Positions 1-10,432 of a stretch of DNA of 33,146 bases are shown in pieces. Position 1 is the first letter of the stretch, and every line of letters begins with the position of its first letter. Position numbers and translations under genes: made by a program. Source of the DNA: Actinomycetota bacterium (GTDB lineage Bacteria > Actinomycetota > UBA4738 > HRBIN12). Where the stretch lies: contig JACQDK010000047.1 in assembly GCA_016201135.1 (NCBI GenBank), positions 1 to 33,146 on the forward strand, read 5' to 3'. A model generated the notes under the pieces. That model was not told where the DNA came from, ran no database searches, and worked only from the letters and a program-made list of their open reading frames with translations.

Positions 1-1136
1 ATCGTCGTCCGCAGGCGTACGGGGTCGACGAAGACCGTGTCGGCGTGCCCGGCCCACTCGATCCCCGGATGCCCAGGATCTCTTCGCTGCTGCTCGGCGA
101 GATCGAGCACCAGCTTCGCCAGGTCGACCCGCTCTGGGAAGAACTCGAGCCCTCCCCCGAGGATCCGGGCAGCGTCGACGAGCTGCCGCAGGATCGTGTC
201 CATGCGGTCCGCGTCGTGCACGATCCCCCCTAGCATCAGCGCCCGCTGCTCCTCGGTCACCGAGTCCCATCTCTTCTCCAGCGCGAAGCCGAACCCCTTC
301 ATCGCGGTGAGCGGCGAGCGAAGGTCGTGTGCCGCCGCCGCGACCATCGCTTCGAGCGTGCTCGAAGGGGCCACCCGCTTCCGCGCCCATTCGAACAGGC
401 AGACGCTGGCGGCCGCGGCGAGATTGAGGGACTCCGCCTTACCGGAGTGCGGGACGCGGACGGTGGCGTCGGCGAGCGCCCTCACCTTCTCGGGCAGGCC
501 GTGGGCCTCGTTCCCGAAGACGAAGGCCAGAGGCTCCGAGAGATCGGTCGCGTACAGGTCCTCGGCGCCCCGGGCATCCATAGCGAGCACCCGGAAGCCC
601 CGGCGTCGACACAGCGAGATCGCGTCCGCGGTCCCTGCCCCCCGAACGACCGGCAGGTGGAACACCGATCCGGCCGAGGCCCGGACGGTCTTCGGGTTGA
701 ACACATCGACCGAGGTCTCCGAGAACACGACCCCGGCCACCCCGGCGGCGTCGGCGGAGCGAAGGACGGTGCCGGCGTTCCCAGGGTCGCGCACCTCGTG
801 CAGGATGGCGACGCATCCCGCGCGGGGAAGCTCCTGGAGGTCCACGTCCACGAACCTCGCCACCCCCACGAGACCCTGCGGCGTCACGGTCGAGGTGATC
901 TTTCCCATCACGTCCTCGCTCACGTGCGCCACCTCCACGCCCTCCTGGTGCGCGCGGACGGCGAGAGGATGGAGGAGGTCGGTGGCGTAGAGGACCTCCA
1001 ATCGACCGCCCTCGGCCAGGGCCTCCGAGACCCCCTGCGCCCCCTCGACCAGGAAGCGCCGATCCTGCTCGCGGTACGCGCGTCGCTTCAGCCGCGCTGC
1101 GGCCGCCACCTTCGGGTTCTTGAGGGACGTGAGCAC
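1..1136 (-). CDS. SpoU/TrmH RNA 2'-O-methyltransferase fused to a histidine kinase (3' end outside window)
   Basis: I translated this frame by hand: 378 codons with no stop, running off the left edge. Residues 1 to about 255 are a TrmH-family RNA ribose methyltransferase with an N-terminal substrate-binding part (starts VLTSLKNPKV). They carry a SAM-knot motif FGNEAHGL near residue 207 and the motif-3 stretch VPHSGKAESLNLAAAAS near 232-248. After a linker of a few residues the frame continues into a HisKA dimerisation domain with the H-box HDLRSPLTAMKGF, whose phosphoacceptor is His270. The two helices that follow lead toward an ATPase domain that lies outside the window. The GTG at 1136 fits the family N-terminus. 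It follows rplT by 65 nt, the usual place for a TrmH gene between rplT and pheS. I see no transmembrane segment in the visible part, so a soluble protein is likely. Both domain calls are firm; the fused product is seen in sequence but its function is unknown. Confidence 0.85.
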   Translation of the reverse strand, partial: MLTSLKNPKVAAAARLKRRAYREQDRRFLVEGAQGVSEALAEGGRLEVLYATDLLHPLAVRAHQEGVEVAHVSEDVMGKITSTVTPQGLVGVARFVDVDLQELPRAGCVAILHEVRDPGNAGTVLRSADAAGVAGVVFSETSVDVFNPKTVRASAGSVFHLPVVRGAGTADAISLCRRRGFRVLAMDARGAEDLYATDLSEPLAFVFGNEAHGLPEKVRALADATVRVPHSGKAESLNLAAAASVCLFEWARKRVAPSSTLEAMVAAAAHDLRSPLTAMKGFGFALEKRWDSVTEEQRALMLGGIVHDADRMDTILRQLVDAARILGGGLEFFPERVDLAKLVLDLAEQQRRDPGHPGIEWAGHADTVFVDPVRLRTT

Positions 1137-1201: not shown

Positions 1202-1561
1202 CTACGCGCCGAGCGCCTCGCGGGCGGTGTCGACCAGGCCCTTGAACGCGCCCGGGTCGTGAACGGCGAGATCGGCCAGGATCTTCCGGTCGACCTCGAC
1301 TCCGGCGGCCTTGAGTCCGCTGATGAACCGCGAGTAGCTGATGTCGTGCGGCCGGCACGCGGCGTTGATCCGGGTGATCCACAGCCGCCGGAACTGGCCC
1401 TTGCGGTCCCGCCGGTCGCGGTACGCGTACTGGCCGGAGTGCATGACCTGCTCTTTGGCGGCGCGGTAGCGCTTCCGGCGCGTGCCGGTGTATCCCTTCG
1501 CCGCCTCGAGGATCTCGCGGCGTTTCTTCTTCGCGTGGACGGATCGTTTCACTCGGGCCAT
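1202..1561 (-). CDS. rplT: 50S ribosomal protein L20
   Basis: The protein has 119 residues, the normal L20 length, with the very basic N-terminal helix ([18 protein letters not shown]) that threads into 23S rRNA and the conserved [15 protein letters not shown] and RINAACR segments. L20 is an early assembly protein of the large subunit and in many bacteria represses its own operon. It follows rpmI by 4 nt in the standard infC-rpmI-rplT order and ends with TAG. Start ATG at 1561 gives the family N-terminus exactly. Confidence 0.98.
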
Positions 1562-1565
1562 CGGG

Positions 1566-1757
1566 TCACTTCCCCAGCAGTCGGCGGATCTTCTTGCGCT
1601 CCGCCGACACCTCGGACATGCCCTCGACGCGGCGGCGGCGGCTGCCGGTCTTCTTGGTGAGCATGTGGTTCCCGGTGGCCTTGCGGTGCAGCACCTTCCC
1701 GTTGCGGGTGATGCGGAACCGCTTGGCGGCCGCGCGATGGGTCTTCATCTTCGGCAT
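1566..1757 (-). CDS. rpmI: 50S ribosomal protein L35
   Basis: A 63-residue basic protein starting [17 protein letters not shown], which is the L35 signature, with the conserved [12 protein letters not shown] and C-terminal [11 protein letters not shown]. It is a structural component of the 50S subunit. It lies 4 nt after infC and 4 nt before rplT, so the three genes are cotranscribed and probably translationally linked. Confidence 0.98.
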
Positions 1758-1761
1758 ATCG

Positions 1762-2379
1762 TCATCCCTCGGTGGGCTCGACGGAGGTGGAGGCGGAAGC
1801 GGGCTCGGCTACCGCGACCGGCTCGGCTACTGGAGCAGGACGCGGCGCCTCGGACCTCTTCTCCCCGTGCTTCTTGTTCGGCGCGATCACCATGATCATG
1901 TTCCGGCCTTCCTGCTTCGGCATCGCGTCCACGGTCGCGAGCTCCTTCAGATCCTCGACGAGCCGGTCGAGGATCCTGCGACCCAGATCGGTGTGGGCCA
2001 TCTCGCGTCCGCGGAACATGATCGTGACCTTTACACGCGACCCCGCCCGCAGGAACCGTTCGACGTGGCCCTTCTTCGTGGCGTAGTCGTGCGGATCGAT
2101 CTTCGGGCGGAACTTGATCTCCTTGACCTCGACACGGACCTGCTTGCGTCGGGCTTCCTTCTGGCGGATGTCGCGCTCGTACTTGTACTTGCCGTAGTCC
2201 ATGATCCGCGCGACCGGCGGATCGGCGTTCGGCGCGACCTCCACGAGATCGAGGTCCAGGTCCCGGGCCATCCGGATCGCATCCTGCGTGGAGACGATGC
2301 CGACCTGCCCCCCGTCCGCGCCCACGAGGCGCACCTGGGGTGCCCGGATCCTGTCGTTTATCCGCGGGTCAGTCGATAC
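1762..2379 (-). CDS. infC: Translation initiation factor IF-3, apparent non-canonical GTA start
   Basis: IF-3 prevents premature 50S joining and proofreads the start codon and initiator tRNA. The reading frame contains the IF-3 N-domain ([16 protein letters not shown]), the linker with MDYGKYKYE, and the C-domain ([40 protein letters not shown]), followed by an Ala/Pro/Glu-rich tail. No ATG, GTG or TTG lies upstream of the conserved N-terminus: an in-frame TGA comes four codons before GTA. The GTA at 2379-2377 sits where actinobacterial IF-3 proteins start (x-S-T-E/D-x-R-I/V-N). It is 9 nt downstream of a perfect Shine-Dalgarno GGAGGTGAT. Rare start codons in infC are well known (AUU in E. 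coli) and let IF-3 repress its own synthesis. An internal GTG at 2334 would delete the start of the N-domain. Identity is certain; the start codon is inferred. Confidence 0.93.
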
Positions 2380-2851: not shown

Positions 2852-3327
2852 TGCCGTCCCCCCTTCGCGATCTTGTCCAGCAACGAGGCCATCTCGAGGG
2901 CGGCCAGAGCTGCGTCGCGGCCCTTGTTCCCATGGGCGCCGCCGGCCCGTTCGAGTGCTTGGCGCAGGTCCTCGGTGGCCAGGACCTCGAACACGACCGG
3001 AACCCCGCTGTCGCGAGCCGCCTCCCGGATCCCGCGCGCCGCTTCGTTGGCCACCAGCTCGAAGTGCGCGGTATCTCCCCGCACGACGGCGCCCAGGCAG
3101 ATCACGGCGTCGTATGAGAGGGACTCTGCCATGCGGCGTGCCACCAGCGGGATCTCGAAGGCGCCAGGCACCCAAGCGAGATCCACGTCCTCCTCGTCCA
3201 GCCCGGCGGCGCGCAGGGTCTCGAGGCACGCGGCCACGAGCTTGCCGGTCACGACCTCGTTGAACCGCGAGGCGACGACGGCGATCCGGCGGCCGCGACC
3301 GTCCGGCTCGCCCTCGAAGGTCGTCAC
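2848..3327 (-). CDS. ribH: 6,7-dimethyl-8-ribityllumazine synthase
   Basis: This enzyme condenses 5-amino-6-ribitylamino-uracil with 3,4-dihydroxy-2-butanone 4-phosphate to lumazine, the substrate of riboflavin synthase. The 159-residue protein carries the expected motifs: [11 protein letters not shown] near the N-terminus, [10 protein letters not shown] for substrate binding, [19 protein letters not shown] around the catalytic His, and [14 protein letters not shown] at the C-terminus. GTG at 3327 overlaps the ribA stop as GTGA. It is the last biosynthetic step encoded before the cupin gene. Confidence 0.98.
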
Positions 3328-4037
3328 CGCGTGCCTCCGGCCTCAGGAAGGGCGTCGAGCAGGTGGCCGAGCTTCTCCCTCTTCGTTCGGAGGTAGCCGA
3401 TGTTCTCCGGCGTCGGGTCGGTCTCGAGCGGTATCCGCTCGACGATCGACAGCCCGTAGCCCTCCAGCCCGGCCCTCTTCGAGGGGTTGTTCGTGAGCAG
3501 TCGCATCGTCTTCACGCCGATGTCCACCAGGATCTGGGCCCCGATACCGTAATCGCGCTGATCGGCGGCGAAGCCGAGCTCGAGGTTCGCTTCGACGGTG
3601 TCCCTGCCCAGATCCTGCAGCTCGTACGCGCGCAGCTTGTGCGAGAGCCCGATGGCGCGCCCCTCGTGGCCGCGGACGTACAGCACGACACCGCGAGCCT
3701 CCTTCCCGATCAACTCCATCGCGCGCCCCAGTTGCTCGCCGCAGTCGCAGCGCAGCGACCCGAACACGTCACCTGTGAGGCACTCCGAGTGCACCCGCGT
3801 GAGGATCCCCTCGCCGTCGCCGATGTCCCCGAGGACAAGCGCGACATGGGTGCGAGAGTCGACGACGCTCTCGTACGCGTAGGAGCGCCACTCCCCCTGC
3901 GGGGTGGGGATCGTCGCCTCGGCGAGGCGGGTCACGAGCACCTCGCTCCGGCGCCGGTACTGGATCAGGTCGGCGATCGAGATCAGCTTGAGGTCGTGCC
4001 TCCTCGCCACCTCGACGAGCTCGGGAAGGCGAGCCAT
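3324..4037 (-). CDS. ribA: GTP cyclohydrolase II, separated from RibB by one in-frame TAG
   Basis: The protein opens the imidazole ring of GTP, the first committed step to riboflavin. The catalytic domain shows the zinc cluster region [10 protein letters not shown], the [10 protein letters not shown] segment, and [11 protein letters not shown] near the end. The first 30 or so residues ([24 protein letters not shown]) are not part of a free RibA. In bifunctional RibBA they are the last helix and strand of the RibB domain. The upstream gene ends DDG-TAG in the same frame with zero nt between the stop and this ATG, so the pair looks like a RibBA fusion cut by a single amber codon. The ATG is the conserved Met of the DDG-x-MAR motif. 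Confidence 0.93.
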
Positions 4038-4586
4038 CTAGCCGTCATCTCGCATGACCTCACAGATCACGCCGGCAGGGAATAGACCTCCGGCCGAGGC
4101 GAGGTCGACGGCGGCCTCGGTGTGGCCCGCGCGCTTCAGTACCCCGCCTTCCTGAGCCCGGAGCGGGAAGACGTGTCCGGGCTTCTGGAAGTCCTGCGGG
4201 CGGGAGCCGGGGTCGGTGACGGCCTTCACGGTGGCGGCGCGATCATGCGCGCTCGTGCCCGTCGTCGTGCCGGGACGGTAGTCGATCGAGACGGTGAACG
4301 CGGCCTCATGACCCCCGGGCATCTCGGAGACCATCTGAGGGATGCCGAGCTCGTCGAGCCGGCGGCCGTCGACCGGAAGGCACACGATGCCGCGACCGTA
4401 GGTGACCATGAAGTTGATCGCCTCCGGGGTCACCTTCTCGGCGGCCATGATGAAGTCGCCCTCGTTCTCCCGGTCGGCGTCGTCGACGACCAGGATGATG
4501 CTCCCCTGGCGGATCTCCTCGATCGCCTCGGGGATCGTCGCGAAGACCGACCGGTCGAGGCCGTCGACCTGCTGCTGCTCGCTCAT
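4038..4586 (-). CDS. ribB: 3,4-dihydroxy-2-butanone 4-phosphate synthase, C-terminal segment moved to RibA
   Basis: RibB converts ribulose 5-phosphate to the four-carbon unit used by RibH. The 182 residues include VVDDADRENEGDFIMAAE, the acidic metal-binding loop, YGRGIVCLP, and TGTSAHDRAATVKA and GHVFPLRAQEGGVLKRAGHTEAAVDL with the catalytic His and acidic residues. It ends ICEVMRDDG followed by TAG. Stand-alone RibB proteins (about 215 residues) and RibBA fusions continue with x-MARLPEL...SIADLIxYR, which here is encoded in the same frame directly after the stop as the start of ribA. The protein is thus about 30 residues shorter than usual. It starts at ATG 4586, overlapping the ribE stop by 4 nt. 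Confidence 0.93.
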   Translation of the reverse strand: MSEQQQVDGLDRSVFATIPEAIEEIRQGSIILVVDDADRENEGDFIMAAEKVTPEAINFMVTYGRGIVCLPVDGRRLDELGIPQMVSEMPGGHEAAFTVSIDYRPGTTTGTSAHDRAATVKAVTDPGSRPQDFQKPGHVFPLRAQEGGVLKRAGHTEAAVDLASAGGLFPAGVICEVMRDDG

Positions 4587-6562: not shown

Positions 6563-7324
6563 TCAGAGCACGGCGTCGAGGAACCTGCGGGTCTCCGGGA
6601 ACCTCGTCTCTTCGAACATCTGCTGGGGGGTCCCCTCCTCCAGGATGACCCCCTCGTGGAAGAACATCATCCGATGGGCCACCTCGCGGGCGAAGCCCAT
6701 CTCGTGGGTGACCACGATCATCGTCATCCGCATCTCGGTGGCGAGGGACTTCATCACGGCCAGCACCTCGCCGATCAGCTCCGGGTCCAGGGCGGAGGTC
6801 GGTTCGTCGAAGAGCATCACCTTCGGCTCCATGGCAAGCGCCCGCGCGATCGCCACCCGCTGCTGCTGGCCGCCGGACAGCCGGATCGGGTACTCCTCCG
6901 CCTTGTCGGCCAGGCCCACCTTCGCGAGTATCTCGAGGCCCATGGCCCGGGCGTCGGCCGCCGGGAACCCCTTCACGGTCACCGGACCCTCGATCACGTT
7001 GTGGAGCGCGGTCATGTGGGGAAAGAGGTTGAACTGTTGGAAGACCATCCCCGTGCGGATCCGAAGCTGGCGGACCTGCTCGCGCTTGTGGTGGGTATGG
7101 TGCCCCCCTTCCAGCCGGATGCCGTCGACCTCGATGGTGCCCGAGGTGGGATCTTCCAGGAAGTTGATGCAGCGAAGCACCGTGCTCTTGCCGGCGCCCG
7201 ACCGGCCGAACATCACGACGACCTCGCCCTCGTGGATCTCCATGTTCACGCCGCGGACGACCTCGAGGTTCCCGAAGTACTTGTGGAGGTTCTCGACTTT
7301 GACGACGGCGCGCTCGCTACCCAT
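6563..7324 (-). CDS. Polar amino acid ABC transporter ATP-binding protein
   Basis: A 253-residue ATPase of the GlnQ/HisP class that powers import through the adjacent permease. Walker A is GRSGAGKST, the Q-loop follows as [12 protein letters not shown], the signature is [16 protein letters not shown], Walker B is [12 protein letters not shown] and the switch His is in [12 protein letters not shown] small His-rich insert [11 protein letters not shown] lies before the Q-loop, where family members usually have a short Lys/Arg-rich loop. It starts 8 nt inside the end of the permease gene, so all three transporter genes form one operon. Confidence 0.95.
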
Positions 7325-9502: not shown

Positions 9503-10432
9503 CTACGGCTGGCGGCGGTCCACCGCGTAGCCCGAGCCGCTCTGGCGCTTGGCGAACTGCTTCATCTCGGTGGCCACGGCCACCGCCTCCCCGTAGTGGG
9601 CGAACCCGCGACGGGCCGTCGAGGCGATGCCGACCGAGACGGCTACGAGCGGTATGTCCTGCAGGACCCCCTTGCGGTCCTCCATCCGGACGAACCCCCG
9701 CTTCAGCTCGTCTTCGTCGTAGAAACCGATCAGGTGCTCGTCGAAGCGTTCGCAGATCCGCTTCGCTGTGTCCTCCGTGACCTCGGGCGGAACAACCGCT
9801 ACGAAGTCGTCGCCGCCGACGTGACCGATGAAGGCGGCCGCTCCGGCGAACTCGACGACCGCGTCCTGGATGATGCGCGCTGTCGCTTGGATCAGCCGAT
9901 CCCCGCGGACGAACCCCTTCTGGTCGTTGTAGGTCTTGAAGTTGTCCAGGTCGCAGTAGAGCACCGCGAACGGCAGGTCGTCGCGCACCTGCCGCTCGAT
10001 CTCCTCCTGGATCCGGATGTTGCCGGGGAGGCCGGTGAGAGGCGAGAGGTTCCGCATCTCCTTAGCGCGCCGAAGCGTGCCCTTCACCCGCGCGAGCAGC
10101 TCGATCGGGTCGAACGGCTTGATGATGTAGTCGTCGGCTCCCGACTGCAGGCCGGCCACCTTGTCCGCGGAGAGGGCCTTGGCGGTGAGCATGATGATCG
10201 AGGCGTTCGCCGTCTGCGGATTCTTCCGCAGGCGCTGAGCGACCTCGAACCCGTCGATCCGCGGCATCATCACGTCCAGCAACACGAGGTCCGGGCGGAT
10301 CTCGGCGGCCTTCGTGATGGCCTCCTCGCCGTCGCCCGCGACCGCCACCTCGTACCCGGCGGAGCGCAGGTTCACCTCCACGAACCGCGCGATGTCGGGA
10401 TCGTCGTCGACGACGAGGATCGTCTCGGGCAC
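9503..10432 (-). CDS. Response regulator with a degenerate GGDEF domain
   Basis: Residues 1-120 are a receiver domain with the acidic pocket DDDP, phosphoacceptor Asp53 (LLDVMMP), Thr in MLTAKA and Lys in IIKPFDP. Residues 130-305 are a GGDEF-type cyclase fold (LTGLPGN, VLYCDLDNFKTYNDQKG, and SVGIAS). The active-site loop reads HVGGDDF instead of RxGGDEF: the catalytic Glu is Asp and the preceding Arg/Tyr region is changed, and no RxxD inhibitory site is visible. It may be a weak cyclase or a GTP/c-di-GMP-binding effector. GTG 10432 abuts the rpe stop (TAG-GTG), so it is coexpressed with rpe. No partner kinase is next to it. Confidence 0.88.
   Translation of the reverse strand: MPETILVVDDDPDIARFVEVNLRSAGYEVAVAGDGEEAITKAAEIRPDLVLLDVMMPRIDGFEVAQRLRKNPQTANASIIMLTAKALSADKVAGLQSGADDYIIKPFDPIELLARVKGTLRRAKEMRNLSPLTGLPGNIRIQEEIERQVRDDLPFAVLYCDLDNFKTYNDQKGFVRGDRLIQATARIIQDAVVEFAGAAAFIGHVGGDDFVAVVPPEVTEDTAKRICERFDEHLIGFYDEDELKRGFVRMEDRKGVLQDIPLVAVSVGIASTARRGFAHYGEAVAVATEMKQFAKRQSGSGYAVDRRQP

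Follow-up and report, generated by a model that had tools for sequence, protein, structure and literature searches.

A predicted rRNA methyltransferase fused to a conserved, probable pseudokinase of OhkA descent in a class of Actinomycetota

OhkA of Streptomyces is an orphan kinase that controls antibiotic production and sporulation via WblA and the response regulator OrrA (SCO3008), its demonstrated partner (PMC9739842). DivL, a pseudokinase of Caulobacter, is without kinase and phosphatase activity and has taken on the task of sensing a phosphorylated regulator, DivK~P (PMC4211667). It has PAS domains, carries Tyr at the position of the phospho-acceptor His and regulates CckA. ChpT and Spo0B combine a His-bearing DHp domain with a degenerate ATPase-like domain. 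Among the rRNA 2'-O-methyltransferases, RlmP (YsgA, Gm2553), RlmR (Um2552) and MRM3 are stand-alone enzymes composed of an L30e-like and a SPOUT domain (PMC12123411). Work on two-component signalling and work on rRNA modification usually proceed apart from each other. In this study, we describe a gene of Actinomycetota that joins a SPOUT methyltransferase and a kinase-derived module in a single reading frame, and compare its locus with these systems.

The window, that is, the whole stretch of 33,146 nucleotides that was analysed, spans the full length of contig C80 in a source genome of 132 contigs. The fusion gene occupies positions 1136..3 of the minus strand as one open frame of 378 residues, which contains no stop codon and runs off the contig; because the window is the whole contig, the frame is truncated at the contig end. 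The features of the locus are as follows.

375..1136, minus strand: SpoU/SPOUT 2'-O-methyltransferase with N-terminal L30e-like substrate-binding domain (residues 1-254), from Pfam, the AlphaFold2 model of the orthologue in genome G008 and a motif scan in relatives
162..353, minus strand: HisKA / DHp helical hairpin with H-box HDLRSPLT and phospho-acceptor His270, from Pfam HisKA; the His is invariant in fused and split proteins
1..125, minus strand: first part of a degenerate HATPase (CA) domain that is truncated where the contig ends; the remainder, with a GSK-type G2 motif, lies on contig C1 at 6926-7045 (minus strand)
1202..1561, minus strand: rplT (L20), directly upstream of the fusion, in conserved synteny
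1566..1757, minus strand: rpmI (L35)
1762..2334, minus strand: infC (IF3); the listed frame starts at an internal GTG and the true start may be further upstream

Pfam assigned MRM3-like_sub_bind (residues 7-91), SpoU_methylase (109-248) and HisKA (262-325; 42.4 bits) to the window protein, each above its curated cut-off. The first-pass annotation of this DNA had read the TrmH and HisKA domains as one polypeptide with no intervening stop, placed after infC-rpmI-rplT, and both observations are borne out by the single frame and by the ribosomal genes directly upstream. The H-box that it reported was located, with its His at bases 327-329. The methyltransferase part ends at about residue 254 and HisKA starts at residue 262 with no PAS domain between them; the enzyme sits where split relatives have PAS, in agreement with the earlier remark that it takes the sensor position. 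The gene could be followed to its stop codon: its last 120 bases lie at the edge of contig C1 (6926-7045, minus strand), and this tail (SGAGSKIGMFVARGVAEAQGG...) has 80% identity to the G008 orthologue. Downstream of it are pheS, pheT and argF, which gives the order infC-rpmI-rplT-[fusion]-pheS-pheT in the window genome. About 60 residues are missing between the two contigs, as estimated from the G008 orthologue. The earlier statement that the window cuts the gene before its ATPase domain was right about the truncation, but the domain is present in degenerate form. Elsewhere in the window, a ribBA-like gene (3324-4586, minus strand) contains one in-frame stop (4038-4040) with an ATG immediately after it, and its G008 counterpart is one continuous frame of 423 aa; either the gene is genuinely divided into two coupled ones, or one base is in error.

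The class, which is uncultured and holds one order, was sampled with 27 genomes, and a six-frame search for both halves found them on one frame in 24. The recurrence of the same frame rules out an assembly frameshift, which the first-pass annotation had considered near position 360, and a chance open frame in GC-rich DNA. Production of a separate kinase from an internal start was also rejected, as the region ahead of HisKA shows no conserved start codon accompanied by a Shine-Dalgarno-like motif. Of the other genomes, G011 has a C-terminal fragment only, and the six-frame search gave no match in G023 (73% complete). In G021, the methyltransferase gene (locus L162, 7344-8030, minus strand) ends after the SPOUT domain and pheS follows 36 bases on; the kinase half has been deleted and OrrA kept, and this genome represents a natural deletion experiment.

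Many genomes across the phylum have the gene order infC-rpmI-rplT-SpoU-(kinase)-pheS. Those from outside the class either encode the kinase on its own immediately behind SpoU, in most cases with a PAS domain, or have none there. The concern that relatives might always encode two genes thus applies to other classes but not to this one. Among the matches listed for a 397-genome sample of the phylum, both halves were on one frame in class members only. The split kinases of family f5 are also without PAS; long open frames had hinted at further fusions in two genomes of this family (G102 and G171), which proved to hold separate genes. In a tree of kinase halves, 21/21 class members are on one branch (support 100/100). 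By genome order, the gene at the kinase position in Streptomyces coelicolor is presumably SCO1596, that is, OhkA. The window-class locus and its split relatives, whose kinase at this position looks functional, share gene order as well as homologous DHp and CA domains. The fusion lies between rplT-SpoU and pheS as the OhkA group does, but it is not a separate gene with an N-terminal PAS sensor: its kinase part continues directly from the upstream methyltransferase, lacks PAS and no longer has the ATP-binding motifs. Its descent from the orphan kinase OhkA, and the retention of the cognate regulator OrrA, could not be seen from the window at the first pass.

In GHKL-fold proteins, the N-box Asn binds Mg2+ and the G1 Asp binds adenine. 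We counted motif columns in an alignment of 21 fused class members and 17 split proteins. The phospho-acceptor His is present in all of them (21/21 and 17/17). In contrast, the N-box Asn (Ala, Ser, Gly or Thr instead) and the G1 Asp (Arg throughout) are found in 0/21 fused proteins and in 17/17 split ones, and one Gly of G2 is Lys or Arg in 21/21 fused proteins and Gly in 17/17 split ones. The residue after the His (H+1) is Asp in all fused and Glu in all split proteins, and the Ser at H+4 is retained. For the window genome, only G2 (GSK) is readable, its own N-box and G1 being within the contig gap. The HATPase_c domain, which the first-pass annotation had suggested looking for, is present but degenerate, scoring 19.9 bits in G008 against a Pfam cut-off of 26.4. 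Since the three residues are lost in the class and retained in split homologues, the fusion protein appears to have lost kinase activity and is unlikely to autophosphorylate. Motif loss is, however, no proof of lost ATP binding, as the N-box Glu (Asp in one protein) and part of G2 remain.

These losses do not look like decay by drift. Pairwise dN/dS stayed well below 1 in each of the three modules: the pseudo-ATPase gave 0.11-0.42, similar to the 0.12-0.35 of the methyltransferase, and DHp gave 0.05-0.39. The low dN/dS and the invariant phospho-acceptor His point to a maintained pseudokinase rather than a decaying gene. Purifying selection on all parts, together with a fusion at the sensor position from which PAS is gone, would also suit the interpretation offered at the first pass, in which an active histidine kinase uses the methyltransferase as its sensor and reads RNA, the pre-ribosome or SAM. 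We regard this as improbable, because no aligned class member retains the N-box Asn, the G1 Asp or the G2 Gly. The earlier interpretation is therefore partly supported: the fusion is genuine and conserved, but a kinase that reads RNA modification, ribosome assembly or SAM level is not supported. A second SpoU-histidine kinase fusion, from a groundwater Actinomycetota MAG (L037, 4974-6518, plus strand; JACOTK010000152; one genome only), keeps every ATPase motif. It is placed among split kinases in the tree of kinase halves and so arose separately. This protein could work as an active kinase with a methyltransferase sensor; the model suits it better than the window protein, and it would be the better test case for that idea.

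It is also conceivable that the kinase remnant is a mere structural module for dimerisation or stability of the methyltransferase, in late decay and with no role in signalling. SPOUT and DHp folds are both dimeric, and the genomes can be arranged in a series from split active kinase through fused degenerate kinase to complete loss in G021, where the pseudo-ATPase domain, maintained elsewhere, is dispensable. However, the His and the H-box are invariant, DHp is often the most constrained part of the protein, new invariant residues (Arg and Lys/Arg) stand at the lost catalytic positions, and OrrA is retained. These features argue for a specific interaction, and we consider a purely structural role rather unlikely.

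In the AlphaFold2 model of the complete G008 orthologue (483 aa; mean pLDDT 85.6), L30e-like and SPOUT domains are accompanied by a DHp hairpin of two helices (258-326) and a domain of Bergerat type (334-470). Among solved structures, the model is best matched by RlmR (Um2552), AviRb and YsgA/RlmP (Gm2553), with MRM3 and RlmB below and histidine kinases after them. The window protein has the L30e-like and SPOUT domains, and its three SpoU motifs (DPGNAGTVLRSA, FGNEAHGL and ESLNLAAA) are intact, as they are in the class members scanned. The RlmP/RlmR/MRM3 group gives the best matches in both fold and sequence, although its members are stand-alone enzymes and the target of the window-class enzyme is a prediction. 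From the fold matches and intact motifs, the methyltransferase is likely to be an rRNA 2'-O-methyltransferase of this kind acting on the 23S A-loop, at G2553 or U2552.

The kinase half alone was modelled with a pLDDT of 92.7. Its best match is HK853 with the regulator RR468, and DivL, ChpT and RetS were also matched. The fusion resembles DivL in having the DHp and CA fold with, as predicted, no working kinase, but it keeps the His, and the domain attached to it is an rRNA methyltransferase. Because the His is kept, unlike in DivL, the chief rival reading is a ChpT- or Spo0B-like one: the DHp His would act as a histidine phosphotransferase or phosphatase. Phosphate accepted from a different receiver or from a heterodimeric kinase would be handed on to OrrA, or OrrA would be dephosphorylated, while the methyltransferase sets the conformation. 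The retained His, the acidic H+1 residue and the H+4 Ser fit such a role, as do the fold match to ChpT and a weak Pfam HPTransfase match in 2/25 members. On the other hand, this Pfam match is marginal, the change from Glu to Asp at H+1 separates all fused from all split proteins, and neither a hybrid kinase acting upstream nor a REC partner dedicated to the fusion was identified. Unlike the fusion, ChpT and Spo0B are not joined to a methyltransferase. A phosphotransfer or phosphatase role of the fusion, while a candidate, seems to us unlikely on balance.

We located OrrA in a Streptomyces-like genome (G047) by its neighbourhood, mtrAB-lpqB-comFC-hpf-orrA-secA, and not by a named record. Its assignment to SCO3008 leans on the gene order of S. 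coelicolor. A second basis is that OrrA belongs to the NarL family (PMC9739842), and the class regulator is of NarL type in the same hpf-orrA-secA context. Orthologues with 70-77% identity are present in 27/27 class genomes, including G021, and the next paralogues among the matches listed have at most 54%. In the window genome, OrrA is at 21897-22550 of contig C23 (genome G000; locus L257), between hpf and secA. The Asp pair, the phospho-acceptor Asp and the Lys of the class receiver are intact. Among the 370 genomes outside the class, 66/71 OrrA-positive ones gave a match to OhkA-like kinases as well (Fisher p ~1e-43, a value that ignores shared ancestry, from a kinase set that includes paralogues of about 1000 aa). 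OrrA is directly downstream of hpf in both the Streptomyces-like genome (L216, 6272-8143) and the window genome (L257, 6892-8088), which places kinase and regulator alike in ribosome-related gene clusters; hpf, a ribosome hibernation factor, was named here by sequence resemblance and not by family search. Four genomes of one genus, g99 (G122, with locus L256 on contig C40; G141, G180 and G258), have an intact OhkA-type kinase at the locus and no OrrA at E <= 1e-68, which may reflect a switch to another partner. Other kinases may also act on OrrA, and its coupling to the fusion is not essential in G021, which lost the kinase half yet kept OrrA. In addition, a response regulator with REC and degenerate GGDEF (GGDDF) domains lies beside rpe in the window (9503-10432, minus strand); many class genomes keep it at a distance of about 5-9 kb from the fusion, and it is a putative partner.

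We propose that the fusion encodes a bifunctional protein, an rRNA methyltransferase, probably of the A-loop, with an OhkA-derived, DivL- or ChpT-like pseudokinase that docks OrrA, and we judge this reading about as probable as all others together. In the class ancestor, the PAS sensor would have been lost and the two reading frames merged into one; the ATP-binding motifs would then have degenerated while the phospho-acceptor helix of DHp stayed under selection. The product would be a dimeric SPOUT methyltransferase with a C-terminal pseudokinase derived from the neighbouring orphan kinase. By analogy with DivL and DivK~P, this pseudokinase would no longer autophosphorylate from ATP but may still dock the OrrA receiver, and docking would couple the state of OrrA to the methyltransferase or its pre-50S substrate. 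The observed joining of the two parts, the absence of ATP-site motifs, the signs of purifying selection, the fold prediction and the retention of OrrA are consistent with this proposal. Either direction fits the sequence: OrrA could control methylation, with OrrA~P as input and the methyltransferase as output, or equally engagement of the pre-ribosome could control OrrA.

Our searches of open-licence papers found no report of a SpoU-histidine kinase fusion. The components are known; what appears to be new is that an rRNA methyltransferase is combined with a conserved pseudokinase whose regulator is retained. A fusion under selection throughout a class suggests a physical link between OhkA/OrrA signalling and the assembly of ribosomes. 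The split relatives include OhkA, a developmental and antibiotic regulator of Streptomyces, and the fusion makes it testable whether the neighbouring methyltransferase SCO1597 or the state of the A-loop feeds into OhkA/OrrA, or the reverse. Through the fusion and its regulator, the making of ribosomes may be connected to bacterial signalling in an unusual way that does not depend on kinase activity.
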